Source: Goekera deserti
GTDB taxonomy: Bacteria > Actinomycetota > Actinomycetes > Mycobacteriales > Geodermatophilaceae
NCBI RefSeq assembly: GCF_010685995.1
Contig: NZ_JAAGWK010000022.1
Location: 62,001-126,000 of the forward strand
Reading direction: 5' to 3'
Length of the DNA: 64,000 nt
Part shown: positions 8,497 through 64,000 of the stretch, one piece after another
Layout: each line of letters opens with the position of its first letter
How positions within the stretch are numbered: position 1 is the first letter of the stretch
Notes under the pieces: model-generated
The model's input: the letters and a program-made list of their open reading frames with translations, nothing else
Databases searched by the model: none
What the model was told of the DNA's origin: nothing
Translations under genes and position numbers: made by a program

Positions 8497-8551
8497 CGCC
8501 ACCTCAGGCCATCTCGGGAGTGCCTGCCCCGAGGGCGACTCCGACCTGCAG

Positions 8552-8594
8552 ACAGTTGTGCTCTGCTCGGCCTGGGCGAGCAGAGCACAACTGT
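8552..8594. terminator. Bidirectional hairpin terminator, 18-bp perfect stem
   Basis: ACAGTTGTGCTCTGCTCG (8552-8569) pairs perfectly with 8577-8594 around a 7-base loop. An outer pair, GCCTGCCC at 8522-8529 with GGGCAGGC at 8598-8605, could extend it. It lies between the convergent ferredoxin reductase and SnoaL-like genes, which fits a shared terminator. There is no T tract, as is common in high-GC actinobacteria. Confidence 0.75.
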
Positions 8595-8632
8595 GCCGGG
8601 CAGGCGTCGTCCGGCGCAGTCCGTGGCCGACG

Positions 8633-9169
8633 TCAGCGGTCGCGGGCGCCGTAGAGGTCGGAGCCCAGGCGGGGGAGCGCCGGGTCGCGCGTGCCGCTGA
8701 CCAGCGCGTTGGGGCCGAAGGTGTGCACCCAGCGCTCGCTGATCCGCCAGCCCTCGGGAGTGCGCTGCCAGGTGTCGTCGTAGGCGACGGCGACGGTGAG
8801 GTCGGCGGGCCCCGGGCCGTCGGTGCGCCAGTGCGCGCAGACGGCATAGGTGCGGCTGTGCGCCGTGTCGCCATCGACGTCGACGCGGCTGTTGCCCATC
8901 AGGTGCTGGGAGCCGGCGAAGCCGCGCATCGTCCGGTCGAGGAAGTCGGCGATCTCCGCCCGGCCCCGGGGCTCGGCGCCCATGGCCGGGCTGTGGTGGT
9001 CGACGGCGTCCTCGGTGAACACCGCCTCGGCGACGTCGCGCCAGCGGGCGGTGTCGAGCAGGAACGCGTACGAGTCCAGCACCTGCCGGATCTCCTCGCG
9101 GTCCCGCAGGGCCCTCAGCTCGCGGTCCAGGTCGGCCAGCTGCTCGGCCAGGTCGGGCGGGATCTGCAT
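8633..9169 (-). CDS. SnoaL-like / NTF2-fold protein
   Basis: A 178-residue NTF2-fold protein with an N-terminal coiled helix rich in charged residues (LADLDRELRALRDREEIRQVL), then the SnoaL-like core with WRDVAEAVFTEDAVDHHSP and GGWRISERW-like C-terminal strands (EGWRISERWVHTFGP). ATG 9169 is chosen because GGAGG lies six bases upstream; the frame opens 12 codons earlier. It is divergent from the ABC transporter operon, sharing a 120-base promoter region that holds the CCTAAC operator. It may act on a pathway intermediate; the reaction is unknown. Confidence 0.8.
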   Translation of the reverse strand: MQIPPDLAEQLADLDRELRALRDREEIRQVLDSYAFLLDTARWRDVAEAVFTEDAVDHHSPAMGAEPRGRAEIADFLDRTMRGFAGSQHLMGNSRVDVDGDTAHSRTYAVCAHWRTDGPGPADLTVAVAYDDTWQRTPEGWRISERWVHTFGPNALVSGTRDPALPRLGSDLYGARDR

Positions 9170-9241
9170 GGGTGCCTCCAGGGTTCGTGGGGTGCTGCAC
9201 AACAACTACGTGACAGCGGGAGTGACCTCCGCTACGTTCCA

Positions 9242-9256
9242 CCTAACACCGTTAGG
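9242..9256. promoter_or_regulatory. Operator-like inverted repeat, perfect CCTAAC-N3-GTTAGG
   Basis: CCTAAC ACC GTTAGG is a perfect 6-3-6 inverted repeat, 33 bases before the transporter ATPase start. The flank CTACGTTCCA just upstream is shared with the site at 14224, and TACGTT could be part of a -10 box. This is the best copy of the three-site family. Confidence 0.65.
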
Positions 9257-9289
9257 AAACCCCGCACCGCTGCGAGGAAGGACCACGGC

Positions 9290-10087
9290 ATGCCCAGCAC
9301 CCCCGTCGCCGCGCCGCCGGCACACCTGCGGATCGACCGGCTGACGCTGGAGTTCGGCGGCGTGCGGGCACTGTCGGAGGTGAGCATCGACCTCGCCGGC
9401 GGCGGTATCATCGGCCTCATCGGGCCCAACGGCGCCGGCAAGACCTCGCTGCTCAACTGCATCTCCGGGTTCTACCGGCCCACCAGCGGCGACGTCACCC
9501 TGGACGGCCGCAGTGTGCTGGACATGCGCCGGCACCAGCTCGCCGGCCAGGGCATCGCCCGCACCTTCCAGAACCTGGCGCTCTTCGGCGAGATGAGCGT
9601 CTACGACAACGTCGCCGCCGGCGCCCCGCGCGGCCGACGGCGGCTGCGCGGTGTGCCCGGCCTGCGCCCGCCCGGCACCGGTGCCGCCGAGCGGGACGCC
9701 GTCTGGGCGATGCTCGAGCGCTTCGACCTGGTGCAGCACGCCCGGCACCCGGCGCACGGCCTGCCGTTCGGCACGCTGAAGCGGGTCGAGTTCGCCCGGG
9801 CGCTCATGGCCCGCCCGCGCGTCCTGCTGCTCGACGAGCCCGCCGGCGGGCTCACCCACACCGAGGTCGACGAGCTCGGCGGGCTGATCACCGACGTCGT
9901 CCGGGACCTCGCGCCGGTGGTGCTGCTCATCGAGCACCACATGGGGCTGATCCTCTCGGTCTGCAGCCGCATCGTCGTCATGGACTCCGGCCGCACCATC
10001 GCCGACGGCCCCACGGAGCAGGTCCGGCACGACCCCGCCGTGATCAGCGCCTACCTGGGTGGGGGTGCCGACCTTGCTGCACGTTGA
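9290..10087 (+). CDS. Branched-chain amino acid-type ABC transporter ATPase (LivG family)
   Basis: A 265-residue ABC ATPase with Walker A GPNGAGKT, Q-loop ARTFQNLALF, Walker B VLLLDEPAGG and a switch His in LIEHHM. The signature LPFGTLKRVEFARAL is the divergent form usual in LivG. It supplies ATP hydrolysis with the adjacent LivF-type partner to import a substrate across the membrane. Many actinobacterial systems of this class sit in catabolic islands and import organic acids rather than amino acids; the setting here suggests that. ATG 9290 follows GAGGAAGG. The gene overlaps the next one by 29 bases. Confidence 0.92.
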   Translation: MPSTPVAAPPAHLRIDRLTLEFGGVRALSEVSIDLAGGGIIGLIGPNGAGKTSLLNCISGFYRPTSGDVTLDGRSVLDMRRHQLAGQGIARTFQNLALFGEMSVYDNVAAGAPRGRRRLRGVPGLRPPGTGAAERDAVWAMLERFDLVQHARHPAHGLPFGTLKRVEFARALMARPRVLLLDEPAGGLTHTEVDELGGLITDVVRDLAPVVLLIEHHMGLILSVCSRIVVMDSGRTIADGPTEQVRHDPAVISAYLGGGADLAAR

Positions 10088-10775
10088 GGGGATGTCGGCC
10101 GGCTACGGCGCCGCCGACGTCGTCCACCGGATCTCCCTGGACGTCGCCGAGGGCGAGATCGCCGTCGTGCTCGGGGCCAACGGCGCGGGCAAGACGACGA
10201 CGCTGCGCGCGATCTCCGGCGTGCTGGCCCGCTCCGGCGTCGTGCAGTTCGACGGTCGCCCGATGCCCACCCGGCCCGAGGACACGGTGCGGGTCGGCCT
10301 GAGCATGGTGCCGCAGGGCCGCGGCACGCTCACTGAGCTCACGGTGCTGGAGAACCTGCTGGTCGGAGCCGCTGTGCGTCCCCGCCACGAGGCCGACGCC
10401 GACGTCGAGAAGTGGTGCGGGTTCTTCCCCGTGCTCGGCGAGCGGCGCGAGCAGAAGGCCGGCTCGCTGTCCGGCGGGGAGCAGCAGATGCTCGCCATCG
10501 CCCGGGCGCTGATGGCCCGGCCCCGGCTGGTGCTGCTCGACGAGCCCAGCCTCGGGCTCGCCCCGATCGTGGTGCAGCGGGTCTTCGCCGCACTGGCCGA
10601 CATCAACGCCACCGACGGGACGTCGATGCTCATCGTGGAGCAGAACGCCGACCTCGCCCTGCGGCTGGCCCGCAGCGCCCACGTGCTGGAGGCCGGCCGG
10701 CTGGTCGCCTCCGGCGCGGCCGCGGACTTCCTGGACGACGATCGGGTGCGCAGCGCCTACCTCGGGGGGCGCTGA
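10059..10775 (+). CDS. Branched-chain amino acid-type ABC transporter ATPase (LivF family)
   Basis: A 238-residue ABC ATPase with Walker A GANGAGKTT, the LivF-type VPQGRGTLTELTVLENL, signature LSGGEQQMLAIARAL, Walker B LVLLDEPSLGLAP and the family motif ADIN..GTSMLIVEQN. It pairs with the upstream LivG-type ATPase. GTG 10059 or GTG 10065 may be the start; both lie inside the upstream gene. The stop is followed directly by the first permease, so the operon is tightly packed. Confidence 0.92.
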   Translation: MGVPTLLHVEGMSAGYGAADVVHRISLDVAEGEIAVVLGANGAGKTTTLRAISGVLARSGVVQFDGRPMPTRPEDTVRVGLSMVPQGRGTLTELTVLENLLVGAAVRPRHEADADVEKWCGFFPVLGERREQKAGSLSGGEQQMLAIARALMARPRLVLLDEPSLGLAPIVVQRVFAALADINATDGTSMLIVEQNADLALRLARSAHVLEAGRLVASGAAADFLDDDRVRSAYLGGR

Positions 10776-34174: not shown

Positions 34175-34417
34175 TCAGCGTTCGGCGGGCGCGTCGACCA
34201 GCCGGCTGAGCCGGTGGTGACCGGCCGGCCGCGGCGCCGACACCCACAGGCACAGCTCGGGGTCGGCCTCGAACAGCGGACCCTCCAGCCACCGGCCGTC
34301 CCGGCTGAAGCGGCCGCACCGCCGGCCCATGGTCACCCGCACGGTGCCGCCCTCGTCCGGGGAGTACAGCGCGCGGGGGTTCAGCGGGTGCCGGATCCCA
34401 CCGGTCGGCTGGGTCAT
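34175..34417 (-). CDS. Small Rieske-linked protein, copy 1
   Basis: An 80-residue protein overlapping the stop of the upstream Rieske oxygenase gene by four bases (ATGA). It is clearly related to the 81-residue protein at 35964-36209, which overlaps the other Rieske gene of this divergent pair. Shared residues: IRH, RA-x-Y, V-x-V-T, GRF-x-RDG-x-W-x2-G, and ADPELC-x-W. It has no membrane segment, no signal peptide and a single Cys. A small subunit, assembly factor or substrate adaptor for this oxygenase subgroup are all possible. I do not know the family. Confidence 0.75.
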   Translation of the reverse strand: MTQPTGGIRHPLNPRALYSPDEGGTVRVTMGRRCGRFSRDGRWLEGPLFEADPELCLWVSAPRPAGHHRLSRLVDAPAER

Positions 34418-35963: not shown

Positions 35964-36209
35964 ATGCGCAAGATCAGGCACGCGCTCAGCCGTGCGGTCT
36001 ACGAGTGGGCACCCGACGACCACGGGCCGGTGCTGGTCACCGACCGCGAGGGCCGGCAGGGCCGGTTCGACCGGGACGGCGGCTGGGTGGCCGGCGAGGT
36101 GCGCCGGGCCGACCCCGAGCTGTGCCGCTGGATCGTCAGCGGTGGCCGGGAGCCGGGTGGCCCGGGCAGCCGCAGCCGCCGCTTCGAGACCGAGGAGACG
36201 TTCTCGTGA
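35964..36209 (+). CDS. Small Rieske-linked protein, copy 2
   Basis: An 81-residue protein (starts MRKIRHALSRAVYEW) that overlaps the following Rieske gene by four bases (GTGA). It shares the IRH, RA-x-Y, GRF-x-RDG-x-W and ADPELC-x-W residues with the protein at 34175-34417. In copy 1 the gene follows its oxygenase; here it precedes it. The order is swapped but the pairing is kept, which argues for a functional link. ATG 35964 has GGAGGG upstream. The C-terminus is Gly/Arg/Ser-rich and less conserved. Function unknown. Confidence 0.78.
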   Translation: MRKIRHALSRAVYEWAPDDHGPVLVTDREGRQGRFDRDGGWVAGEVRRADPELCRWIVSGGREPGGPGSRSRRFETEETFS

Positions 36210-39850: not shown

Positions 39851-41572
39851 ATGGCCGAGCACGGCTGGTTGATCGACACCGTCCCGAGTCAGCAGTTCCC
39901 GGTCTACACGCGGCTCAACGCCAACGACGTGCTGCCCGACCCGATCACCCCGCTGGGTGCCAGCTTCTGCTGGATCCCGCACATCATCCCGGGCTGGGCG
40001 GCCGGCTACGCCGCGCTGGACGCCTTCACCCCCTCCGAGCTCGCCCAGGAGGAGATGGCCCCGGTGGCCGGCTTCTTCTACGGCTACCTCTACATCAACC
40101 AGTCCAACGTGCGGGTCGTCGGCATCCGGGCCGGCATCGGCTGGCGGGCCATCGACGCGGCGTTCTTCAGCGCCGACTCGCCCCCGCACGACGAGCGCCC
40201 CGACGACGTCAACGCCGAGCTCAGCGCCCGGATGGCCGCCCGCACCCAGTGGGCGCTGACCACCACCACGTTCCCCGAGGTGGAGGAGGAGCGGCAGATC
40301 GCCGAGCGGGTGCGGGTGGCCCGGCCCGACCTGGCCACGCTGTCCCCGGCCGCCCTGGTGATGTACGCCCGCTCCCTGATGCCGCTGGAGCGGCTGTGCT
40401 GGCGCAGCGAGACCATCGCCAGCAACCAGGCGGCCACCGGCCCCGCGGTCCTCGCCCAGCTCCTCGGTGAGGCCGACGCCTCCCTGGTGGTCCAGGTGAT
40501 CGGGCAGGCCGGCGAGGTGGACTCCGCCGCCCCCTCGTTCGCGCTGTGGGACCTCTCCCGCGTGGTGCGCGCCGACCCGTCGCTGACCGCGACGTTCGAC
40601 GGCGGCGTCGACGGGCTGCTGGGCCGGCTGGAGGCCGGGCACGCCGACTTCGCCTCCCAGTTCCACCGTTTCCTGCGCGACTTCGGCTACCGCGGCCCCA
40701 GCGAGTGGGACCTGGGGGCCGACTCGTGGGAGACCCGCCCGGAGCTCGCGCTGGGCCTGGTGGACCGGCTGCGCCAGCTGGACGACCAGGCCTCGCCCGG
40801 CTCGCGGCAGGGGGAGCAGGACCGGCAGCGCGCCGAGGCGACCGCCAAGGCGTTCGCCGTCCTGGGGGAGAGCGTCGAGGCCCGGCAGACCTTCGAGCTC
40901 GCCGTCGCCTCGGCCCGGCGCTTCGGCGCGTGGCGGGAGCGGGCCAAGACCAACTGCATCAAGGTCATGCACGAGGCGCGGATGGCGTTGACCGAGCTCG
41001 CCCGGCGGCTGCACGCCGAGGGCCACCTGGCCTCCCCGCAGCAGCTGTTCATGGCCACCGACGAGGAGCTCGACGTCCTCATCGCCGAGCCGCAGGCGCT
41101 GACCGAGCGGCTGGCGGAGCGGGAGCGGGAGTGGCACCGCCTCGCCGGCCTGGACATCCCGACGTTCCTGGACTCCCGCGCGGGCGTGCCAGCGCTGGCC
41201 GACATCCCGCGGCGGGAGCAGGCCGGGGTCCAGGTCGCCCGGGCGGGCGACGTGCTGCAGGGCGGGCCGGCCTCGGCCGGGGTCGCCCGCGGCCGGGCGC
41301 GCATCGTGCGGGACACGGCCAGCATCTCGGAGTTCCAGCCGGGCGAGGTGCTGGTGGCGCCGCAGACCGACCCGTCCTGGACGCCGCTGTTCATGGTGGC
41401 CAGCGCCGTCGTGGTGGACGTCGGCGCGATGGGCAGCCACGCGATGATCGTCAGCCGCGAGCTGGGCATCCCGTGCGCCGCCGGCGTCACCGGCGCCACG
41501 CGGCGCATCCCCGACGGGGCCGAGGTGGAGGTCGACGGCTCCACCGGCCGGGTGACGGTGCTCAGCGTCTGA
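39851..41572 (+). CDS. PEP-utilizing-enzyme mobile-domain protein without ATP-grasp domain
   Basis: A 573-residue protein. The C-terminal 90 residues are a PEP-utilizing phosphohistidine domain: GPASAGVARGRARIV, EVLVAPQTDPSWTPLF, and the His in GSHAMIVSRELGIPCAAGV (His530). Residues 1-470 are mostly helical and resemble the substrate-binding middle part of rifampin phosphotransferase and phenylphosphate-synthase-type proteins. The ATP-grasp domain that normally phosphorylates the His is absent. It may work with a separate ATP-binding subunit, but none is in the window. ATG 39851 follows AGGAAGG. Confidence 0.85.
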   Translation: MAEHGWLIDTVPSQQFPVYTRLNANDVLPDPITPLGASFCWIPHIIPGWAAGYAALDAFTPSELAQEEMAPVAGFFYGYLYINQSNVRVVGIRAGIGWRAIDAAFFSADSPPHDERPDDVNAELSARMAARTQWALTTTTFPEVEEERQIAERVRVARPDLATLSPAALVMYARSLMPLERLCWRSETIASNQAATGPAVLAQLLGEADASLVVQVIGQAGEVDSAAPSFALWDLSRVVRADPSLTATFDGGVDGLLGRLEAGHADFASQFHRFLRDFGYRGPSEWDLGADSWETRPELALGLVDRLRQLDDQASPGSRQGEQDRQRAEATAKAFAVLGESVEARQTFELAVASARRFGAWRERAKTNCIKVMHEARMALTELARRLHAEGHLASPQQLFMATDEELDVLIAEPQALTERLAEREREWHRLAGLDIPTFLDSRAGVPALADIPRREQAGVQVARAGDVLQGGPASAGVARGRARIVRDTASISEFQPGEVLVAPQTDPSWTPLFMVASAVVVDVGAMGSHAMIVSRELGIPCAAGVTGATRRIPDGAEVEVDGSTGRVTVLSV

Positions 41573-53407: not shown

Positions 53408-54427
53408 GTGGAACCAGTCGGGGCCGTCGCGACCAGGACCGACCGTGCGCCGTCCGTGGAGGGTCTCGACGCGGCGTCGCTGCTCGACCTGCACCGGCGG
53501 ATGGTGCGCATCCGGGTCTTCGAGACCGAGGCCGGCCGGCTGATGGAGAGCGGCGACCTGCCCGGCTTCCTGCACCTGTACGTGGGGCAGGAGGCGGTCG
53601 CGGCCGGCGCGCTGGCCACCCTCACCGACGCCGACCAGATCACCTCCACCCACCGCGGGCACGGGCACGCGGTCGCCAAGGGCGCCGGCTTCCGGAAGAT
53701 GTTCGCCGAGCTGTTCGGCCGGGTCGACGGCTACTGCCACGGCCGGGGCGGCAGCATGCACATCAACGACCTGTCGATCGGCATGCTCGGCGCCAACGGC
53801 ATCGTCGGCGCCGGGCTGCCCATCGCGGTGGGCGCCGCCTTCGCCGCCCGCTACCGCGGCGACGGCTCGATCGCGATGACCTTCTTCGGCGACGGAGCCA
53901 GCAACATCGGCGCCTTCCACGAGGCCGCCAACATGGCCGCCGTCCTGCAGCTGCCGGTCGTCTTCGTCTGCGAGAACAACGGCTACGCCGAGTTCACCGC
54001 CCAGGCGCGGCACATGCGCCTGGACGACGTCGCCGACCGCGCGGCCGCCTACGGCATGCCCAGCGAGGTGTGCGACGGGATGGACGCCGTGGCCGTGCGG
54101 CAGGCGTGCCGGCGCGCGGTCGACCGGGCCCGGGCGGGGGAGGGGCCGTCGCTGGTGGAGGCGAAGACCTACCGGTACTACGACCACCAGGGCGTGAAGG
54201 GTCTCCGCAAGCCCTACCGCACCCAGGAGGAGATCGACGCCTGGAAGGCGCGCGACGCCATCGAGCTGCTCGAGGCCCGGGCCGCCGCGGACGGCGTCGT
54301 CGACGCGGCGGAGTTCGCGCGCGTGTGGGAGGAGACCCGGGCCGACGCCGTGGACGCCATCGCCTTCGCCCGGGCCAGCCCGCTGCCCGACCCGGCGACG
54401 CTCACCCGCGACGTCTACACCGACTGA
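53408..54427 (+). CDS. 2-oxoacid (acetoin-type) dehydrogenase E1 component, alpha subunit
   Basis: A 339-residue thiamin-diphosphate subunit. GHGHAVAKGA, GRGGSMHINDLSIGMLGANGIVGAGLPIAVGAA, the TPP motif GDGASNIGAFHEAANMAAVLQLPVVFVCENN from about residue 161, and THRGHGHA resemble acetoin dehydrogenase AcoA and branched-chain E1-alpha. With the next two genes it forms a decarboxylating or acetoin-cleaving complex that yields an acyl-CoA. GTG 53408 has GGGAGG six bases upstream; GTG 53402 is an alternative. It is the first gene of a six-gene operon. Confidence 0.92.
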   Translation: MEPVGAVATRTDRAPSVEGLDAASLLDLHRRMVRIRVFETEAGRLMESGDLPGFLHLYVGQEAVAAGALATLTDADQITSTHRGHGHAVAKGAGFRKMFAELFGRVDGYCHGRGGSMHINDLSIGMLGANGIVGAGLPIAVGAAFAARYRGDGSIAMTFFGDGASNIGAFHEAANMAAVLQLPVVFVCENNGYAEFTAQARHMRLDDVADRAAAYGMPSEVCDGMDAVAVRQACRRAVDRARAGEGPSLVEAKTYRYYDHQGVKGLRKPYRTQEEIDAWKARDAIELLEARAAADGVVDAAEFARVWEETRADAVDAIAFARASPLPDPATLTRDVYTD

Positions 54428-54442
54428 GTCGAGAGGACCGGC

Positions 54443-55429
54443 ATGGCCGTGCGCGAGCTGACCTACGTGAAGGCCTACACCGAGGCCCTGCACCAGCTCA
54501 TGGGGGCCGACGACGACGTCTTCGTCGTCGGGGAGGACGTGGCCGGCTACGGCGGGGTCTTCCACATGTACGACGGGCTGCTGGCCGCCTACGGCGAGCG
54601 GCGGATGATCGACACCCCGATCTCCGAGACCGCGATCGTGGGGCTCGGGGTCGGTGCCGCGGCCCGCGGGCTGCGCCCGGTCGTGGACATCATGTTCATG
54701 GACTTCCTCGCCGTCTGCCTGGACCAGCTGGTCAACCAGGCGGCCAAGATGAAGTTCATGTTCGGCGGTGAGGTGCGGGTGCCCATGGTGCTCACCGTGG
54801 CCGCCGGCGCGGGCCTGTCCGCCGGGGCCCAGCACAGCCAGAGCCTGGAGGCGTGGCTGGCGCACACCCCGGGTCTGAAGGTGGCCATGCCGTCCTCGGC
54901 GCACGACGTCAAGGGCCTGATGGTCACCGCGGTCCGGGACGACAACCCGGTCGTGATGATGCTCAACAAGAAGCTGCTCGGCGCGAAGGGCGCGGTGCCC
55001 GAAGAGCTGTACGAGGTGCCGTTCGGGCAGGCGGCGGTGCTGCGCGAGGGCACCGACGTCACCGTGGTGGCGCTGGGCCGGATGGTCGTGGAGGCCACCG
55101 CCGCGGCCGGGACGCTGGCCGCCGAGGGCATCTCGGTGGAGGTGGTCGACCCGCGCACCGTGCAGCCGCTGGACACCGCGACCATCGCCGAGTCCGCCCG
55201 CCGCACGCACCGGGTGGTCGTCGTGCACGAGGCGGTGACCTTCGGCGGGCTGGGCGCGGAGATCGCCGCGCAGGTCACCGACGCCGCCTTCGACCACCTG
55301 GACGCACCCGTCCTGCGGGTCGGGGCGCCGTTCGCGCCGGTGCCGTTCAGCCCGGCGCTGGAGAACGCCTACCTGCCCGACCGCACGCGGATCGCCGAGG
55401 CGTGCCGGCAGATCACGAAGCGGAGCTGA
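54443..55429 (+). CDS. 2-oxoacid (acetoin-type) dehydrogenase E1 component, beta subunit
   Basis: A 328-residue transketolase-like subunit: ELTYVKAYTEALHQLMGADDDVFVVGEDVAGYGGVF, DTPISETAIVGLGVGAA, FMDFLAVCLDQLVNQAAKMKFM, GAQHSQSLEAWLAHTPGLKVAMPS and EVVDPRTVQPLDTATI are standard E1-beta motifs. It pairs with E1-alpha to form the thiamin active site. ATG 54443 has GAGAGGA upstream. The gene sits three bases before E2. Confidence 0.93.
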   Translation: MAVRELTYVKAYTEALHQLMGADDDVFVVGEDVAGYGGVFHMYDGLLAAYGERRMIDTPISETAIVGLGVGAAARGLRPVVDIMFMDFLAVCLDQLVNQAAKMKFMFGGEVRVPMVLTVAAGAGLSAGAQHSQSLEAWLAHTPGLKVAMPSSAHDVKGLMVTAVRDDNPVVMMLNKKLLGAKGAVPEELYEVPFGQAAVLREGTDVTVVALGRMVVEATAAAGTLAAEGISVEVVDPRTVQPLDTATIAESARRTHRVVVVHEAVTFGGLGAEIAAQVTDAAFDHLDAPVLRVGAPFAPVPFSPALENAYLPDRTRIAEACRQITKRS

Positions 55430-55432
55430 GCC

Positions 55433-56845
55433 GTGGCCCAGCAGGTCCTGCTGCCCAAGCTGGGGCTGACGATGGAGGAGGGCACCATCGTCGAGTGGGT
55501 GGCCCGCCCCGGCGACCAGGTGCGCACCGGCGACGTGCTGCTGCGCCTGGGCACCGACAAGGTCGACGCCGACGTGGAGGCCGAGGGGGAGGGCCGCTTC
55601 CAGCCGGTGGTCGACGAGGGCGCGACCCTGGCGCCCGGGGCGCTGATCGCCTGGCTGCTCGACGGCGACGAGCAGCCGCCCGGCGCCGCGCCCGCCCCGG
55701 CCGCCGGGCGGGCCCCCGAGCCGGTCCCTGAGCCGATCCTCGCGTCCGGCGCGGTCGCACCCGGCCGGCCGGAGCCCGGTGGGCGGCTGCTCGCCTCGCC
55801 GAACGCGCGCCGGGTCGCCGCCGAGCTGGGCGTCGACCTGACCACGCTGCGCGGCACCGGGCCGGGCGGGCGGATCGTGTCCGAGGACGTCGCAGACGCC
55901 GTCGTCGCGGCCCGCGTGCCCGCACCGACCGCGGACCGCCCCTCCCCGCGGCCGGTCGACGGCGGCGGGGTGGGCTCCCCGCTGGTGCGCCGGCACGCCG
56001 CGAGCTCCGGGGTGGACCTGGGCTCGGTGCGCGGCTCCGGGCTGGGCGGGCGGATCCGCCGGGCCGACGTGCTGGCCGCCGCGGGCCCCCCGCCGGCAGC
56101 GCCGGTACCGGCCCCCGAGGCGCCCCCCGCGCAGCCGGCCGCAGGGCCCGTGCCCGGCACGGTGCTGCCGCTGACCGGGATGCGTGGCGCGATCGCCCGC
56201 AGCATGCACGCCAGCCTGCAGGAGATGGCCCAGCTGACCCTGGGCCACGAGGCCGACGTCGGTGGCCTGCTGGCGCTGCGCGAGCAGCTCACCCGCGAGT
56301 GGGACGGCACCGGGCTGCGGGTGCCGACGGTCACCGACTTCGTCGTCCGGGCGGCCGCGCAGGCGCTGCCCGAGCACCCGGTGCTCAACGCGAGCGTGCG
56401 CGCGGACGGGATCCACCTGCACGAGCAGGTGCACGTGGGGATCGCCGTGGCCGTGCCCGGCGGGCTGCTCGTCCCGGTGCTGCGCGACGCCGACCGGCGC
56501 GGGATGGTCGACCTCGCCGGGCAGACCCGGGAGCTGGCCGTGGCCGCCCGGGCGGGCCGGCTGACGGCGGCGCAGCTGGAGGGCGCCACCTTCGTCGTCA
56601 CGTCGCTGGGCTCCTACGGCGTGGACTTCTTCACCCCGGTGGTCAACCCGGGCACCACCGGCATCCTCGGCGTCGGCCGGGTCCGGGACGGCGTCCGGTG
56701 GGAGGGGGAGGTGCCGCGCCGCACGTCGGTGCTGACCCTGAGCCTGTCCTTCGACCACCGGGCCGTGGACGGCGCGCCGGCCGCGGAGTTCCTGCGCACG
56801 GTCAGCGGCCTGCTCGCCCGCCCGCACCTGCTGCTGGCCGGCTGA
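55433..56845 (+). CDS. Dihydrolipoamide acyltransferase E2 with two E3-binding domains
   Basis: A 470-residue E2. Order: lipoyl domain 1-78 (lipoylated Lys43 in TDKVDADVE); a Pro/Ala linker; a first peripheral-subunit-binding domain at about 119-155 (ASPNARRVAAELGVDLTTLRGTGPGGRIVSEDV); a second at about 184-217 (SPLVRRHAASSGVDLGSVRGSGLGGRIRRADV); then the catalytic domain with His442 in DHRAVDG. Most E2 proteins carry one binding domain, so the pair is unusual. It transfers the acyl group to CoA. No E3 lipoamide dehydrogenase is encoded in the window. GTG 55433 is the start. Confidence 0.93.
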   Translation: MAQQVLLPKLGLTMEEGTIVEWVARPGDQVRTGDVLLRLGTDKVDADVEAEGEGRFQPVVDEGATLAPGALIAWLLDGDEQPPGAAPAPAAGRAPEPVPEPILASGAVAPGRPEPGGRLLASPNARRVAAELGVDLTTLRGTGPGGRIVSEDVADAVVAARVPAPTADRPSPRPVDGGGVGSPLVRRHAASSGVDLGSVRGSGLGGRIRRADVLAAAGPPPAAPVPAPEAPPAQPAAGPVPGTVLPLTGMRGAIARSMHASLQEMAQLTLGHEADVGGLLALREQLTREWDGTGLRVPTVTDFVVRAAAQALPEHPVLNASVRADGIHLHEQVHVGIAVAVPGGLLVPVLRDADRRGMVDLAGQTRELAVAARAGRLTAAQLEGATFVVTSLGSYGVDFFTPVVNPGTTGILGVGRVRDGVRWEGEVPRRTSVLTLSLSFDHRAVDGAPAAEFLRTVSGLLARPHLLLAG

Positions 56846-56847
56846 CC

Positions 56848-57261
56848 GTGACCACCACACCGCTGGAGCCGGCCCTGTTCGCCTCGCTCGACCCGCCGCG
56901 GCTGGCCGGCAGCCGGTGCGCCGACTGCGGCACGGTCACCTTCCCGGCCGCCACCTCCTGCCCGCGGTGCACCGGGCAGCAGGTGCTGGCCCACGTGCTG
57001 CCCGACCGGGGCACGGTGTGGAGCTGGACGGTGCAGCGCTTCTGCCCCAAGCCGCCCTACCTGCCGCCGGACGGCGGCTTCCGCCCGTTCGCGGTCGGCT
57101 ACGTCGACCTGGGCGAGGTGCTCGTGGAGGCGCGCCTGGTCGCCGAGCCGGAGCAGCTGAGCATCGGCGCGCCCGTGCGGCTGGTGCTGGAACCCGCCGT
57201 CGGCGTCGACGGCGCCCCCGCCGTGGGGCACGCCTTCGCACCCGTGGCGGAGGGGGCATGA
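56848..57261 (+). CDS. DUF35 OB-fold / zinc-ribbon protein, thiolase partner
   Basis: A 137-residue DUF35 protein. The zinc ribbon is C-x2-C-x10-C-x2-C (CADCGTVTFPAATSCPRC), followed by an OB-fold (GTVWSWTVQRF, PFAVGYVDLGEVLVEARL). Such proteins bind acyl-CoA and partner thiolase-fold enzymes, as in the steroid side-chain aldolase Ltp2-ChsH2. Here it overlaps the thiolase gene by four bases (ATGA), which strongly suggests a complex. GTG 56848 lies two bases after the E2 stop. Confidence 0.88.
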   Translation: MTTTPLEPALFASLDPPRLAGSRCADCGTVTFPAATSCPRCTGQQVLAHVLPDRGTVWSWTVQRFCPKPPYLPPDGGFRPFAVGYVDLGEVLVEARLVAEPEQLSIGAPVRLVLEPAVGVDGAPAVGHAFAPVAEGA

Positions 57262-58418
57262 GGGCCGACGACGTCGCCGTCGTCGGCGGGGGGCTGCACG
57301 CCTTCGGCCGGCACGAGGGCCGCACCGGGCTGGACATGGCCGAGGTCGCGGTGCGCGCCGCCCTCGACGACGCCGGGGTGCGCTGGGCCGACGTCGACCT
57401 CGCCGTCGGCGGCAGCAACGTCTCGGGCAAGCCCGACTCGCTGGTCGCCCGGCTCGGGCTCACCGGCCTGCCGTTCACCACGGTGCGCAACGGGTGCGCC
57501 ACCGGCGGGGTGGCGCTGGCCACGGCGGTGAGCGCGCTGCAGTCGCGGCGCGCCGAGCTGGTGGTCGTGCTCGGCTTCGACGCCCACGAGCGCGGCGCCT
57601 TCGCCGCCGACCCGGCCGCCTACGGCCTCGGCGAGTGGTACGCGAGCAGCGGGCTGATGGTCACCACCCAGTACTTCGCGATGCGCACGCGGCGCTACCA
57701 GCACGAGCACGGGGTCTCCGACCTGGCGCTGGCCCGGATCGCCTCCCGGGCGTTCCGCAACGGCGCCGCCCACCCCACGGCGTGGCGGCGCACCCCGTGG
57801 ACGGAGGAGGAGGTGCTGGCCTCCGCGCCGGTGAACGACCCGCTGACCACGTACATGTTCTGCCAGCCCAGCCAGGGTGCCGTGGCGCTGGTCCTGGCCC
57901 GCGGTGACCGGGCCGCCGACCTGTGCCCGCGGCCCGTCCGGCTGGCCTCGGTGACCCAGCGGACCCGCCGCTTCGGCTCCTTCGAGGTCTTCTCCCCGGG
58001 GCTGGCACCCGACCCGTGGCACAGCCCGAGCGTCGACGCCGCTGCGGCGGCCTTCGCCGAGGCCGGCGTCGCACCCGCCGACGTGCAGGTCGCGCAGGTG
58101 CAGGACACCGACAGCGGCTCGGAGCTCGTGCACCTGGCCGAGACCGGGCTGTGCGCGCACGGGGCGCAGGAGCAGCTGCTCGCCGACGGCGCCACCGACG
58201 TCGACGGGGTGCTGCCGGTGAACACCGACGGCGGGTGCCTGGCCAACGGGGAGCCGGTCGGGGCCTCGGGGCTGCGGCAGGTGCACGAGGTGGTCCGGCA
58301 GCTGCAGGGCCGGGCCGCGGGGGCGCAGGTGCCCGGCGGCCCGCGCGTCGGCTTCACCCACGTGTACGGCGCCCCCGGCATCTCGGCCTGCGCCGTGCTG
58401 ACGGCGGACGCTCCGTGA
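57258..58418 (+). CDS. SCP-X-type thiolase / lipid-transfer-protein-like enzyme
   Basis: A 386-residue thiolase-fold enzyme. A nucleophile-position Cys80 lies in RNGCATGGVALATAV. The C-terminal motif is NTDGGCLANGEPVGASGLRQVHE, where the usual GHP His is Glu, as in many actinobacterial SCP-X-like proteins. It may cleave a 3-oxoacyl-CoA, or act as a retro-aldolase with the DUF35 partner, as Ltp2 does. Sequence alone does not decide. ATG 57258 is coupled to the DUF35 gene. Confidence 0.88.
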   Translation: MRADDVAVVGGGLHAFGRHEGRTGLDMAEVAVRAALDDAGVRWADVDLAVGGSNVSGKPDSLVARLGLTGLPFTTVRNGCATGGVALATAVSALQSRRAELVVVLGFDAHERGAFAADPAAYGLGEWYASSGLMVTTQYFAMRTRRYQHEHGVSDLALARIASRAFRNGAAHPTAWRRTPWTEEEVLASAPVNDPLTTYMFCQPSQGAVALVLARGDRAADLCPRPVRLASVTQRTRRFGSFEVFSPGLAPDPWHSPSVDAAAAAFAEAGVAPADVQVAQVQDTDSGSELVHLAETGLCAHGAQEQLLADGATDVDGVLPVNTDGGCLANGEPVGASGLRQVHEVVRQLQGRAAGAQVPGGPRVGFTHVYGAPGISACAVLTADAP

Positions 58419-59653
58419 GCGCGCCGGACCTGGCTGCCTGGCGGGCGGAGGTGCGCGCCTGGCTGGCCGCGACGGTGCCCCCGCGCGACCCGGCGGCCGC
58501 GCAGGGCCCGCCGGACCTCGCGGTGTTCCGCAACGTGTCCGACGAGCAGGAGCGGCAGCTGCTGGACGCCGTCCGCGCCTACCGGCGGGCCCGCTACGAC
58601 GCCGGCTACGGCGCCCTCACGCTGCCCGTCGAGCAGGGCGGGGCGGGTCTGCCGGCGTCCTTCGCGATGGCCATGGCGCAGGAGGAGGCGGCCGTCGCCG
58701 TGCCGCCGTCCACCGAGCTGATCAGCGTCACCACCGGTCTGGTGGGGCCCGCGGTGGCGATGTTCGGCACCGCGGAGCAGCGCCGCACCCACGCCGAGCG
58801 GTTCCTGCGCACCGACCTGCTGGCCTGCCAGCTGTTCAGCGAGCCGGGCGCCGGCTCCGACCTGGCCGCGCTGGCCTGCCGTGCCGTCGCCGACGGCGAG
58901 GAGTGGGTGGTCGACGGGCAGAAGGTGTGGACCTCCGGGGCCCGGCACGCCGACCACGGGCTGCTGCTGGCCCGCACCGACCCCGACGTGCCCAAGCACC
59001 GGGGCATCACCGCGTTCCTGCTGCCGATGGACAGCCCCGGCGTCGACGTCCGCCCGATCCGGCAGATGAGCGGCGGGTCCTCGTTCAACGAGGTGTTCCT
59101 GTCCGGCGTGCGCATCCCGGACGCGCTGCGGATCGGCGGGGTGGGCGAGGGCTGGCGGGTGGCGACGGCGACGCTGGCCTTCGAGCGGACCGCGTCCGGC
59201 TCGGGCACCCGGCGCAAGGGCGGCACCGTGGACGACGTCCTCACCGTGGCCCGGGCCACCGGCGCCGCCGCCGACCCGGTCACCCGGCAGGCGCTGGCCG
59301 ACCTCTACGTGCGCACCGCGCTGCGGGTGGCGACGGCGCAGCGGGTGGCCCGGGCCGCGGCCGCCGGCGTCTCGCCCGGGCCGGGCGCCTCGATCGGCAA
59401 GCTGCTGGCCTCGGACCTGCTCGTGCGCACCGGGGAGCTCGCCGCGGACCTGCTCGGCCCGCAGGTCACCGCGGACACCGGCGTGCCCGGCACCTTCGGC
59501 TGGACCGAGCACCTGCTCGGCGCACCCGGCTACCGGCTGGCCGGCGGCACCGACCAGGTCCAGCGGACGATCATCGCCGAGCGGGTCCTGGGCCTGCCCG
59601 CCGAGCCGCGGGTGGACCGCGACCGGCCCTGGTCGGCCTCCGACCGAGGCTGA
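58415..59653 (+). CDS. Acyl-CoA dehydrogenase
   Basis: A 412-residue acyl-CoA dehydrogenase of the actinobacterial FadE type: GYGALTLPVEQGGAGLP, ACQLFSEPGAGSDLA, VVDGQKVWTSGARHADHGLLLARTDP, FNEVFLSGVRIPD and a C-terminal YRLAGGTDQVQRTIIAERVLGLP. It introduces an alpha-beta double bond into an acyl-CoA with FAD and passes electrons to ETF. GTG 58415 overlaps the thiolase stop. The last residues (SASDRG) are encoded by the first unit of a four-copy 25-bp tandem repeat. A partner-like subunit is encoded on the other strand at 59751. Confidence 0.9.
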   Translation: MSAPDLAAWRAEVRAWLAATVPPRDPAAAQGPPDLAVFRNVSDEQERQLLDAVRAYRRARYDAGYGALTLPVEQGGAGLPASFAMAMAQEEAAVAVPPSTELISVTTGLVGPAVAMFGTAEQRRTHAERFLRTDLLACQLFSEPGAGSDLAALACRAVADGEEWVVDGQKVWTSGARHADHGLLLARTDPDVPKHRGITAFLLPMDSPGVDVRPIRQMSGGSSFNEVFLSGVRIPDALRIGGVGEGWRVATATLAFERTASGSGTRRKGGTVDDVLTVARATGAAADPVTRQALADLYVRTALRVATAQRVARAAAAGVSPGPGASIGKLLASDLLVRTGELAADLLGPQVTADTGVPGTFGWTEHLLGAPGYRLAGGTDQVQRTIIAERVLGLPAEPRVDRDRPWSASDRG

Positions 59654-59750: not shown

Positions 59751-60839
59751 TCACCAGCCCAGCAGCTGGGCCAGCCGTTCCCGGTGGTGGGCCGCGCCGC
59801 CCAGCAGGACGGCGTCGGCGCGGGCGCGCCGGAAGTACAGGTGGGCGTCGTGCTCCCAGGTGAAACCGATCCCGCCGTGCAGCTGGACGTTCTCGGCGCT
59901 GACGGTCCGGTAGGCCTCCGAGCACCAGGCCTGGGCGACGGCGGCCGCCTCGGCCATCGCGTCGGGCGACCCCTCGGCGTCCAGGGCGCGGGTGACCGCG
60001 GAGCGGCAGCTCTCGACCAGCACGAGCAGGTCGGCGCAGGTGTGCTTGAGCGCCTGGAAGCTGCCGATCGGCCGGCCGAACTGGCGGCGCTCCCCGAGGT
60101 ACGCGACGCTCGCCTCCAGGCAGGCCGCCGCGCCGCCCAGCTGCTCGGCGGCCAGCGCCACCCCGGCCACGTCCAGCGCCGGGACGACGGCGGCACCGGC
60201 CGTCCCGCCGCTGGTCAGCCGGGTCGCCGGGGCGCCGGTGAGGGTGACGGCGGCCGACGGGCGGGACAGGTCGAGGCTGTCCAGCGGCACCGTGTCGACG
60301 CCCGGCCCGGCCTCCACGGCGTACAGGTCGACGCCCTCGGCCGAGCGGGCGGCCACCACCAGCAGCTGGGCGCCCCCCGCGCCGGGCACCACGGGCAGCA
60401 CGCCGCGCACGGTGCCGCCGACAGCGGTGAGCTCGACGGCGGCCGGGTCCCAGACACCCCGGGGGCCGGTCACCCCGAGCGCGGCGACCGTGCCGTCGGC
60501 CACCCGGGTCACCAGCGCGTCGGCGCCGGCCGCGGCGAGCACCTGACCGGCGAGCACCGTGGAGGTCAGGAACGGCACCGGGAGCAGCGCGCGGCCCAGC
60601 TCCTCGCAGACCGTGGTCAGCTCGGCCAGGCCCCCGCCCCCGCCGGCCCGCTCGGGCAGGCACAGCCCGGCCAGCCCGACCTGCCGGCCGAGGACGTCCC
60701 ACAGCGCGGGGTCCCAGCCGGGGCCGCCGGCCGGCAGGGCGCGCACGGCGGCCGGGCCCCCGGCGTCCCGGCAGACCTCCCGGACGGCGTCGCGCAGGTC
60801 GGCCAGCTCGGCGGCCCGGTCGGTGTCCAGCACGGTCAC
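59751..60839 (-). CDS. Acyl-CoA dehydrogenase-like protein (short FadE subunit type)
   Basis: A 362-residue acyl-CoA dehydrogenase-fold protein: GLCLPERAGGGGGLAELTTVCEELGRALLPVPF, AACLEASVAYLGERRQFGRPIGSFQALKHTCADLL, ENVQLHGGIGFTWEHDAHLYFRRARAD. It lacks the long TEP-GSD active-site loop, as do the smaller subunits of actinobacterial heteromeric FadE pairs. It may team with a larger subunit such as that at 58415, but this is not shown. GTG 60839 overlaps the PPDK-like stop by four bases, so the two are co-translated. Confidence 0.87.
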   Translation of the reverse strand: MTVLDTDRAAELADLRDAVREVCRDAGGPAAVRALPAGGPGWDPALWDVLGRQVGLAGLCLPERAGGGGGLAELTTVCEELGRALLPVPFLTSTVLAGQVLAAAGADALVTRVADGTVAALGVTGPRGVWDPAAVELTAVGGTVRGVLPVVPGAGGAQLLVVAARSAEGVDLYAVEAGPGVDTVPLDSLDLSRPSAAVTLTGAPATRLTSGGTAGAAVVPALDVAGVALAAEQLGGAAACLEASVAYLGERRQFGRPIGSFQALKHTCADLLVLVESCRSAVTRALDAEGSPDAMAEAAAVAQAWCSEAYRTVSAENVQLHGGIGFTWEHDAHLYFRRARADAVLLGGAAHHRERLAQLLGW

Positions 60840-63409
60840 GGCGCGGCCTGCGCCCGGTCCTGAGCCCTGTCCTGCGCCCTCTCCTCCGCCGTGTCCTGCA
60901 GCGCCGCGTGCGCCGCCGCGAGCCGGGCGACCGGCACCCGCTGCGGGGAGCAGGACACGTAGTCCAGCCCGAGCGCGGCCAGCCGGCCGACGGAGACCGC
61001 GTCGCCCCCGTGCTCGCCGCAGAGGCCGAGCTTGATGTCCGGTCGGACCGCGCGGGCCTTCTGCACCGCGATCGCCACCAGCGCGCCGACGCCGTCGGCG
61101 TCGAACTCGGCGAACGGGCTGGCCGTCAGCAGGCCCTCGCCGACGTAGTGCGCCAGCAGCCGGCTCTCGACGTCGTCCCGGGAGAAGCCGAAGGTCATCT
61201 GGGTGAGGTCGTTGGTGCCGAAGGAGAGGAAGTCGGCGTGCTCGGCGAGCCGGTCGGCGAGCAGCGCGGCCCGGGGCGTCTCGACCATGCTGCCCACCTG
61301 GTACGGCACCCGGACGCCGGTCGTCCGCTCCACCCGGTCGGCGGCCCGGCGCACCTGGCCGATGGCGAGCTCCAGCTCCTGCGGGATGGACACCATCGGC
61401 ACCATCACCTCCAGCCGCGGGCGGGTGCCCGCGGCGGCCACGGTCACCCACGCGGAGAACAGCGCCTCCGCCTGCGCGGCGTAGAGGTCGTCCTCGAGCA
61501 GCGCCAGCCGCACCCCGCGCAGCCCGAGCATGGGGTTGACCTCGCGGAGCTGGGCGGCGCGGCGGGCGTGGGCAGGGTCGGCGTAGACCTCGTCGTGCGG
61601 CAGGAACTCGTGCAGCGGTGCGTCGAGCAGCCGCACGGTCACCGGCCGGTCGCCGGTCACCTGCAGCAGCGCGGTGAAGTCGGCCTGCTGGGCCGCGGTG
61701 AGCGCGTCCAGGGCCAGCCGGTGGGCGTCCTCGTCGGGCGCCAGCAGGAACCGCCGGACCACGGGCAGCCGGTCGCCCAGGAACTGGTGCTCGGTGCGGC
61801 ACAGCCCGATGCCCTCCGCGCCCAGGCGCAGTGCGGCCTCGGCCTCGGCCGCGTTGTCGGCGTTGGCCCGCACCCCCAGCGTCCGTTCCGCGTCGGCCCA
61901 GGACAGCAGGGTGTCGAGCTCGGCGGACGGTTCGGCCGGGCGGACGTCCAGCTCGCCCAGGTAGACGGTGCCGGCGCGCCCGTCGACGGTGACCCGCTCG
62001 CCCTCCCGGACGGTGTGCCCGTGCGCGGTGACGGTGCCGGCGTCCCGGTCGATGCACAGCTCGGCCACCCCGCACACGGCCGGTGTTCCGGTGCCCCGGG
62101 CGACGACGGCCGCGTGCGAGGCCAGCCCGCCGGCGGAGGTCACCACGGCGGCGCTGGCCACCAGCGCGGGCACGTCCGCCGGGGTCGTCTCGGTGGAGAC
62201 CAGGACGACCGGCACCCCGTCGCCGCTCAGCTCCAGCGCCCGCTCGGCACTCAGCGCGACCACGCCGGACGCGGCACCGGGGGAGGCGGCCAGGCCCCGC
62301 GCCAGCTCCCTCTCCGCACCGGTGAGCCGCAGCTGGGCGTGCAGCAGCTCCTGCACCGCCGCGGGCCGGACGGCGCGCACCGCGGTGGCGCGGTCGATCG
62401 TGCCCGCCGTCGCCAGGTCGACCGCCAGGCGCAGCCCGGCGCGGGCGCCGGGGTGCGGGAGCGCGGCGGCCGACAGCAGTGCCAGCTTGCCGTCCCGCAG
62501 CTCGAAGGTGACCGTGGCGACGGCCCGCAGGTGGTTCTCCAGGGTGGCCAGCGCGTGCCGGAGCAGGTCGGTGCCCTCGGGCAGGGCCGACAGCGGCTCC
62601 CCCTCGCCGGACGTGGACCGGCGGCTGACCCCGCGGTGGAAGGTGCCGTGCGGCCGCGGTGCACCGGTGCCGGGGTCGCGGCTGCTCGCGGTGCCGTGCC
62701 CGGACCGCTCCCACGGGCCGACGTGCAGGGCCTGCACGTGCAGGGCCAGGCCGAGGTCGTCCGGCAGGCCCTGCGCGCGGCGGGCGCGCCGCCCGCGCGG
62801 GGAGTCCCAGCGGTGCAGCAGGGCCCGGGCAGCCAGTGCCAGCTGCTCGGCCGGGTCGTCGGGGAAGGGCGCGCTGCCGGTGCGGGCGACGAGGTCCAGC
62901 AGCGCGGGGGCCCGGTCGCCGTCGGCGGTGTCGGTCAGCACGTCGTCGACGTCGTCGGCGTCCACGTCCAGGGCGTCGACCGCGACGACGGCGAGCACCG
63001 TCGTCCAGACGTCGTGCAGCTGGTGCTCGCGCCCGATAAGCTCCGCCAGGGCGCGGGCGTTGGCCGGGCAGACGCCCAGCGCGGGCAGGTCGGGGGGCAC
63101 GCCGGTGGCCGCGACCGGTGTGCTGGGGACCAGGCGGAGCAGCAGCGGGCGGTCGGTCGAGCCCACCCTGCGGCCGGTGAGCTCCTCCACGAGGTCCACC
63201 GCCTCGCGGGCGAGCGCCGGGTCGGTGAGCTGTCGTGCCCGGCTGACCGGGACCGTGATGCCGACGACGGTGGGCAGCCCCAGGGAGACCAGCCGGTCCA
63301 TCTGCTCGCCGTGGACGCCCAGCTCCTCCGCGCCGAGGCCACGGCCGCGGCCCTGCCCGTACGGGACCAGGCTGCTGATCACCGACGGTGCCCCGGCCAG
63401 GGTCGGCAT
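60836..63409 (-). CDS. Pyruvate phosphate dikinase-like protein with degenerate ATP-binding half
   Basis: An 857-residue protein with PPDK architecture. The phosphohistidine domain (GGLASHAAVV, His432) and the PEP/pyruvate barrel are intact: GIGLCRTEHQF, VRLLDAPLHEFLP, NPMLGLRGVRL, VETPRAAL, SFGTNDLTQMTFGFSRDD, CGEHGGD with Cys797. The N-terminal ATP-grasp half is not: the GGKG Lys loop is missing, VRSGA reads LRLVPST, D-x-E-F-T-I reads TVTFEL, and LQTR reads LSAA. It should still handle PEP and a phospho-His but probably not ATP. ATG 63409 is the start; upstream frame is another gene. Confidence 0.85.
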   Translation of the reverse strand: MPTLAGAPSVISSLVPYGQGRGRGLGAEELGVHGEQMDRLVSLGLPTVVGITVPVSRARQLTDPALAREAVDLVEELTGRRVGSTDRPLLLRLVPSTPVAATGVPPDLPALGVCPANARALAELIGREHQLHDVWTTVLAVVAVDALDVDADDVDDVLTDTADGDRAPALLDLVARTGSAPFPDDPAEQLALAARALLHRWDSPRGRRARRAQGLPDDLGLALHVQALHVGPWERSGHGTASSRDPGTGAPRPHGTFHRGVSRRSTSGEGEPLSALPEGTDLLRHALATLENHLRAVATVTFELRDGKLALLSAAALPHPGARAGLRLAVDLATAGTIDRATAVRAVRPAAVQELLHAQLRLTGAERELARGLAASPGAASGVVALSAERALELSGDGVPVVLVSTETTPADVPALVASAAVVTSAGGLASHAAVVARGTGTPAVCGVAELCIDRDAGTVTAHGHTVREGERVTVDGRAGTVYLGELDVRPAEPSAELDTLLSWADAERTLGVRANADNAAEAEAALRLGAEGIGLCRTEHQFLGDRLPVVRRFLLAPDEDAHRLALDALTAAQQADFTALLQVTGDRPVTVRLLDAPLHEFLPHDEVYADPAHARRAAQLREVNPMLGLRGVRLALLEDDLYAAQAEALFSAWVTVAAAGTRPRLEVMVPMVSIPQELELAIGQVRRAADRVERTTGVRVPYQVGSMVETPRAALLADRLAEHADFLSFGTNDLTQMTFGFSRDDVESRLLAHYVGEGLLTASPFAEFDADGVGALVAIAVQKARAVRPDIKLGLCGEHGGDAVSVGRLAALGLDYVSCSPQRVPVARLAAAHAALQDTAEERAQDRAQDRAQAAP

Positions 63410-64000
63410 CAGACCTTCTGGCCGGCCACGAGCGCGGCCTCGAGCTGCTCGTCCTCCGCCCGGCTGATGCCCAGCAGCAGCAGCAGCTCCTGGTGCAGGT
63501 GCATCCACACCGTGTGGTACGAGCGGGTCAGCGGCGAGGTCAGTGCCGACGGGTTGCCCTCGTCGAGCTGCGCCAGCGCCGCGCCGAGGTCCGCCCGGTA
63601 GTGCTCGAGCCCCGGGTGCACGTCGGCCATCCGGCGCAGGATGCGGCCCACGGCCGCGTCCACGTCGTCCAGCCGGTCGCGGACCCCGGCGTCGTAGGCG
63701 GCGTCGCGGTGGTCGTTGGGGGAGCCGTCGGGCCGGATCTGCCAGGCCGAGCACACCTCCCGCAACTCGTGGTTGACCGGCAGGAACCGCTCGAACAGCG
63801 GCCGCAGGGCCGCCTCCTCCGGGCCCCCGGCCGGCAGCCGGGTGAGCTCGGCGGCGGTGGCGGCGCCCACGGCGGTGGGCATCACCAGCGGGCCCTTGAC
63901 CATCGCGAGCCCGGCGTCGACGAGCGCCTGCTGGGCGGCGGACAGCTGGCCCCGGTGCATCCCCTGCACCACCAGCCCGACCAGGGCCTGCCGGGTCGGC
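63409..64000 (-). CDS. Unidentified protein upstream of the PPDK-like gene (5' end outside window)
   Basis: The frame is open to the window edge, so the start lies beyond 64000; an internal ATG at 63972 is probably not the start. At least 196 residues are visible: RQALVGLVVQG, GQLSAAQQALVDAGLAMVKGPLVMP, FERFLPVNHELREVCSAWQIRPDGSPNDH, and LTRSYHTVWMHLHQELLLLLGISRAEDEQ. The protein is mostly helical with no membrane segment. I recall similar proteins beside actinobacterial PPDK genes but cannot name the family. The stop overlaps the PPDK-like start by one base (TGATG). Confidence 0.7.
   Translation of the reverse strand, partial: PTRQALVGLVVQGMHRGQLSAAQQALVDAGLAMVKGPLVMPTAVGAATAAELTRLPAGGPEEAALRPLFERFLPVNHELREVCSAWQIRPDGSPNDHRDAAYDAGVRDRLDDVDAAVGRILRRMADVHPGLEHYRADLGAALAQLDEGNPSALTSPLTRSYHTVWMHLHQELLLLLGISRAEDEQLEAALVAGQKV

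Follow-up and report, generated by a model that had tools for sequence, protein, structure and literature searches.

Pyruvate phosphate dikinase (PPDK), which interconverts ATP, inorganic phosphate and pyruvate with AMP, pyrophosphate and phosphoenolpyruvate (PEP), couples two distant sites by means of a single swivelling histidine. A 64,000-nucleotide stretch of the Goekera deserti genome (contig NZ_JAAGWK010000022.1, positions 62,001 to 126,000; hereafter the window) encodes a long-form PPDK-like protein, P0001, which is confirmed here as a conserved, selectively maintained PPDK descendant that keeps the PEP half only. Two other proteins enter the comparison: UP208, encoded immediately upstream, and SWV, an RPH/RedH-like protein encoded farther away in the window.

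P0001 shares with PPDK (TIGR01828; Clostridium symbiosum structures 1dik and 1kbl, maize 1vbg) its domain order, fold, phospho-histidine and PEP-barrel residues, but it lacks the ATP-site residues, falls under the family cut-off and adjoins UP208 in a catabolic island. The pair formed by VadK (Rv1127c) and Rv1126c (NF004531/PRK05878) resembles it in PPDK descent, in having one half disabled, in the swivelling histidine and in the UP208-type neighbour; in VadK, however, the PEP barrel is the part lost and the ATP half the part retained, the reverse of P0001. With Enzyme I of the phosphotransferase system (PTS) the protein has in common a PEP barrel, a swivelling histidine and the lack of an ATP site, although its N-terminal domain is an ATP-grasp remnant rather than an HPr-binding domain, and the PTS_I_fam profile scores 126 bits where 341.7 are needed. 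Finally, in comparison with RPH and the two-component phenol dikinases HpeHI, CreHI and PpsAB, SWV aligns with RPH and RedH over their substrate-binding and swivel region; unlike in those systems, an HpeI-type ATP-grasp subunit was not found in the genome of the window (G000) or in two other genomes with SWV (G243 and G252), and PEP would be the donor. PMC13400623 describes VadK of Mycobacterium tuberculosis as an ATP-dependent autophosphorylating kinase, co-expressed with its operonic partner Rv1126c for better solubility. Our literature searches turned up no publication describing a PPDK of the PEP-only kind, the nearest being one sentence of that 2026 paper on full-length PPDKs of two Mycobacterium species that miss critical kinase motifs; these are taken to be candidates for the long-form type.

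P0001 retains the PEP half of PPDK

The P0001 gene lies at 60836..63409 on the minus strand and encodes 857 amino acids, as delimited by its open reading frame (ORF), Pfam and NCBIfam matches, alignment and a structural model. Placement of the frame is exact, with ATG at 63409 and TGA at 60838-60836. The ATG shares bases with the stop codon of the upstream gene (TGATG at 63409), as the TGA does with the GTG start of an acyl-CoA dehydrogenase-like gene downstream (GTGA, 60839-60836), so that co-translation with these neighbors is plausible. Pfam recognizes the PEP barrel (2.4e-71) and the phospho-histidine domain (8.3e-18), and PPDK_N is absent from its matches at E<=0.01. TIGR01828 spans the entire protein at 661.9 bits, under its cut-off of 843.45. 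An earlier note, made from this DNA alone, had described P0001 as full length. In the genome of the window, PPDK_N occurs as a single copy inside a PEP synthase-like protein, and thus no ordinary PPDK was found there.

Residues were mapped by alignment to the C. symbiosum PPDK chain, whose residue numbers and roles are presumed here, and by alignment with 126 PPDKs, namely those spanning residues 60-800 at E<1e-80. The N-terminal, degenerate ATP-grasp half (residues 1-365; 62315..63409, minus strand) has lost its catalytic residues, with K22 replaced by H33, R92 by V94, D321 by T299, E323 by T301, Q335 by S313 and R337 by A315. The swivelling phospho-histidine domain (residues 366-490; 61940..62314, minus strand) retains H455 as H432, encoded at 62116-62114, and the PEP/pyruvate barrel (residues 491-840; 60890..61939, minus strand) is intact, retaining R561, R617, E745, N768, D769 and C831 as R538, R593, E710, N733, D734 and C797. 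The earlier note had reported the PEP-barrel residues and phospho-histidine as present and the ATP-site Lys, Arg, Asp, Glu and Arg as replaced, and had named an alignment to C. symbiosum PPDK and a survey of close relatives as checks. The alignment agrees on both counts, the five ATP-site positions being occupied by H, V, T, T and A, and the survey shows the losses to be common to the clade.

Orthologs were sought at three taxonomic ranks, in samples of 112 genomes (same family), 200 genomes (order) and 345 genomes (class). Long forms, at 51-72% identity, are present in few genomes: 12 of the 345 from the class (E<=1e-160) and, with the order sample added, 14 in all, from families f1, f8, f10, f32, f33 and f49. 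The main alignment comprises 13 of these 14, the one from G442 (L164) being left out for a frame with unknown residues, together with the 126 PPDKs and 49 VadK-type proteins. The catalytic residues of the PEP barrel and the phospho-histidine are intact in 13/13 orthologs. At seven ATP-site positions (K22, R92, the S-M-P loop, E323 and R337), 12 of the 13 retain none and the remaining one (L154) retains two, R92 and E323, whereas the 126 PPDKs retain all seven save for one cell, a gap at K22. The same asymmetry appears across all columns whose conservation in PPDK reaches 93% or more. These number 114 in the ATP half, 38 in the histidine domain and 112 in the barrel, and long forms keep on average 32%, 90% and 91% of them, respectively; individual orthologs range from 88 to 93% of barrel columns and from 29 to 37% of ATP-half columns.

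An AlphaFold2 model of P0001 (pLDDT 89) displays a complete PPDK fold, and its best structural match by VIA has a Z of 50.1 over 805 residues (rmsd 3.9). The first match other than a PPDK is Enzyme I (2hwg, Z 33.2), and the histidine domain matches 2fm4 (Z 17.8). According to the model and the structural comparison, the N-terminal domain retains the ATP-grasp fold; the long form has thus lost the known ATP-site residues and is predicted to preserve the fold around them. Ratios of nonsynonymous to synonymous substitution (dN/dS) are 0.10-0.40 in the N-terminal half and 0.10-0.29 in the barrel (7 usable of 8 pairs). Since the domain still folds as ATP-grasp and is under purifying selection, P0001 is not decaying. 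In one genome (G253), a genuine PPDK and a long form lie on opposite strands (L152:3782-6523 and 7606-10131) with UP208 in between.

The long form as the mirror image of VadK

Among the VadK-type proteins, of which 6 of 55 rows were left out of the alignment for being shorter than 350 amino acids, 74% of the PPDK-conserved columns are retained in the ATP half, 83% in the histidine domain and 6% in the barrel. Two of them with UP208 adjoining (L169 and L238) contain both peptides encoded by primers given in PMC13400623. Because this short, ATP-keeping form is the VadK family and P0001 keeps the PEP half, the long form is the mirror image of VadK. Rv1126c, judging by the position of its gene, would be a UP208.

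A tree of the ATP half and histidine domain unites the long form with VadK (95/84). In the barrel tree the long form falls near the actinomycetote PPDKs L082-L133, where long branches meet, and in a FastTree of the histidine domain one PPDK falls, with weak support, inside the group formed by the long form and VadK. That these two forms share an origin separate from PPDK is supported by their common partner and is not settled by the trees. The two kinds of PPDK descendant in actinobacteria, each with one site kept and with the same small partner family, amount to a natural dissection of PPDK. They also bear on the role of VadK and Rv1126c in M. tuberculosis, as the element common to both kinds is the small partner rather than either catalytic half.

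Seven further rows of the alignment were classed apart from these forms. Six are UP208-linked, VadK-like frames of 840-1035 codons (L279, L294, L295, L302, L303 and L304), with an ATP half and extra sequence and no PEP barrel. The seventh (L305:3017-5761, from G091) is a PPDK with an intact barrel, 43% of the conserved ATP-half columns and no UP208 in the stretch fetched; it is possibly frameshifted. In L165 and L171, a VadK-type gene and UP208 stand in a row with genes for a biotin carrier protein and for biotin carboxylase-like and carboxyltransferase-like proteins, the last two recognized by eye.

UP208, a small partner of swivelling-histidine kinases

The gene for UP208 (208 amino acids) extends on the minus strand over 63409..64000 and on to 64035, 35 bases past the end of the window (L002:13410-14036), and its product has no match in Pfam or NCBIfam. 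It adjoins the long form in 14/14 loci and occurs in 0/132 PPDK control loci (flanks of 1.5-9 kb); it also adjoins VadK-type genes, in which the ATP half is kept and the barrel absent. F84 and W98 are invariant in 100 sequences, as are H174, H181 and R192 in the 99 readable at these positions. UP208 was found in 63 of 340 genomes of the class and 22 of 246 of the phylum. When loci were selected by UP208 itself (n=70), a PPDK-type ORF was present in 43, and 13 of the other 27 contain another ATP-grasp or phospho-histidine protein. One locus (L278:2646-4934) encodes a 762-residue fusion with a phospho-histidine-like domain at the N-terminus, a UP208 domain at the C-terminus and several hundred residues without assignment between them. 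On account of these neighbors and this fusion, UP208 is tied to swivelling-histidine kinases as a class, which it accompanies.

Several other arrangements were observed. In L255:4679-6778, an acyl-CoA ligase and UP208 form one fused protein, and SWV is encoded 1.7 kb from it. In nine loci (L262, L263, L266-L269, L274, L280 and L292), UP208 and, mostly, a small conserved protein of ~131 amino acids lie beside a 414-residue RPH/PEPS-type protein with ATP-grasp and phospho-histidine parts, often with a histidine-phosphatase-like gene, as another kinase module. In L282, L290, L291 and L293, UP208 adjoins DapA-like and RNase J-like genes (assigned by eye), and no kinase gene was found.

SWV, a candidate acceptor

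SWV, encoded at 39851..41572 on the plus strand, is a protein of 573 amino acids with an RPH/RedH-like substrate region and a swivelling histidine, H530. It matches RPH, RedH and PigC over their substrate and swivel parts (NF041857 and others, residues 221-571), and a profile search returned no ATP-grasp match. H530 is present in 31/31 full-length frames of the family. SWV occurs in 17 of 345 class genomes (E<=1e-70), comprising 12/12 with the long form as against 5/333 without it, the latter all from family f27 and all with UP208. The Fisher p of this co-occurrence is 1.3e-18, uncorrected for kinship and computed across two class samples of 345 that were requested alike and are assumed to be the same set. 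In 11 of 14 genomes, SWV is no more than 20 kb from the long form; in G299, G429 and G531 the two are on different contigs.

A genome-wide search with PF01326 found no PPDK_N in G243 or G252 and only the PEP synthase in G000, so that in these three genomes SWV is without an ATP-grasp subunit of known type. G447 and G517 have an HpeI/HpeH-like pair elsewhere in the genome. According to PMC13099321, Enzyme I of Bacillus subtilis phosphorylates rifampicin in vitro, and hence transfer from PEP through a histidine to a small molecule is plausible.

Proposed mechanism and alternatives

We favor, with a probability of roughly 0.55, the reading that P0001 is an Enzyme-I-like phosphocarrier charged by PEP and serving UP208 and/or SWV, the counterpart, running on PEP, of the VadK/Rv1126c pair, which runs on ATP. 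From the sequence we infer the charging of P0001 by PEP, and likewise the direction of transfer and the identity of the acceptor. In such a scheme, PEP would phosphorylate H432 at the intact barrel, and the swivelling histidine domain would then depart from the barrel, as in PPDK. The ATP-grasp half, no longer able to make ATP, might now offer a docking or acceptor surface, and the phosphate would pass to a partner, most likely UP208 and/or SWV; SWV, through its own invariant swivel histidine, could in turn phosphorylate a pathway substrate. Across the family, the role is probably to carry phosphate from PEP to partner proteins in a cluster for the breakdown of carbon compounds. More tentatively, and at odds clearly short of even, the three proteins could constitute a PEP-fuelled small-molecule kinase in which P0001 draws phosphate from PEP in the way of Enzyme I, UP208 acts as transfer or acceptor subunit, and SWV phosphorylates an intermediate from the breakdown of an aromatic or alicyclic compound. 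If SWV is the acceptor, the donors used by catabolic small-molecule dikinases would include PEP as well as ATP; if the three-component arrangement holds, actinobacteria have swapped ATP for PEP in one kinase module, through losses of opposite halves from the same ancestral PPDK.

The earlier note had offered two roles, movement of phosphate between PEP and another carrier or regulation by a pseudoenzyme. The carrier is the better supported, the PEP site and histidine being untouched in 13/13 orthologs. The retention of R538, R593, E710, N733, D734 and C797 makes a dead regulatory pseudoenzyme less likely, since a protein acting purely as a scaffold could do without them.

Several observations weigh against the phosphocarrier reading. 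UP208 is not bound to P0001, as 27 of the 70 UP208 loci are without any PPDK-type gene. Its predicted fold is uninformative: with Z up to 11.9, the VIA matches are four-helix bundles of a generic kind, and Foldseek gave 0/124 matches at E<=0.001 for a model built on two sequences. Kinship among the genomes inflates the Fisher p for SWV and the long form, whose co-occurrence may reflect merely a shared catabolic island. The short form, for its part, has an imperfect ATP half, with D in the D321 column in 23/49 proteins, and an AU test does not reject a grouping of the long form with actinobacterial PPDK (p-AU 0.171, on a very long stem).

The alternative that survives best, though we consider it unlikely, is a regulatory kinase of the VadK kind, in which phosphorylated P0001 would bind or phosphorylate a metabolic enzyme (a dehydrogenase encoded in the cluster, for instance, or the E1/E2 complex) and would report the PEP/pyruvate ratio, with UP208 as a regulator and no phosphorylation of a small molecule. 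In its favor, PMC13400623 proposes that VadK regulates methylcitrate-cycle enzymes, and in 10 of 13 neighbor loci the long form has one or more E1/E2 genes nearby. Alignment A1, judged by eye, also shows a winged-helix-like N-terminus in most UP208s that do not accompany a long form. The N-termini of long-form UP208s, however, are shortened and diverged, and regulation of this kind does not predict the strict link with SWV, which resembles small-molecule kinases.

Conceivably, but with distinctly poorer prospects, the remodelled N-terminal domain could itself bind a new small-molecule acceptor, which would make P0001 a single-protein PEP:X phosphotransferase. Six N-terminal residues peculiar to the long form (S96, P105, W135, R200, R208 and H224) are present in 13/13 and almost never in PPDKs or VadK types, and could line a new site in the ATP-grasp fold that the model predicts to be retained. 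Yet the N-terminal half is the least conserved part of long forms (mean pairwise identity 49%, versus 68% in the barrel), and the residues in the former K22 and R337 columns differ between subgroups (H/R and A/G/S/E, respectively).

An ordinary PPDK in which other residues fill the ATP site is very improbable: the full-length TIGR01828 match speaks for it, but it was rejected on the loss of the K, R, E, R and S-M-P positions, near-universal in PPDKs, from 12 of 13 orthologs and of all but two from the thirteenth. Least probable of all is a functionless, decaying pseudoenzyme, which the loss of one active site might suggest and which was rejected on dN/dS values well below 1 in both halves, the frame being intact and the gene order alike in several families of long-form genomes.

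Gene neighborhood

The gene whose GTG overlaps the P0001 stop encodes ACAD-B, an acyl-CoA dehydrogenase-like protein of 362 amino acids (59751..60839, minus strand). The earlier note had pointed to co-translation of P0001 with this gene as odd for a PPDK. The overlap makes this plausible, but as ACAD-B directly follows the P0001 ortholog in only 8 of 14 loci, it is context rather than a fixed partner; it is not in that place in G252 or in the five f49 loci, four of which have an ABC transporter gene there and one of which was not called.

On the plus strand beyond ACAD-B are genes for a second acyl-CoA dehydrogenase, ACAD-A (412 amino acids; 58415..59653), for a ChsH2-like OB/Zn-ribbon protein and a thiolase-like protein (56848..58418) and for the E1 alpha, E1 beta and E2 components of a 2-oxoacid dehydrogenase (53456..56845), E1 beta being named by sequence only. 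ChsH2-like OB proteins and thiolases are a pair familiar from steroid side-chain aldolases. Four genes for Rieske ring-hydroxylating oxygenases, between 34414 and 45578, flank SWV on both sides. Two similar small proteins of 80 and 81 amino acids, at 34175-34417 and 35964-36209, are each encoded beside a Rieske oxygenase gene, and in L153 a small protein of 88 amino acids is likewise encoded beside a Rieske-like gene.

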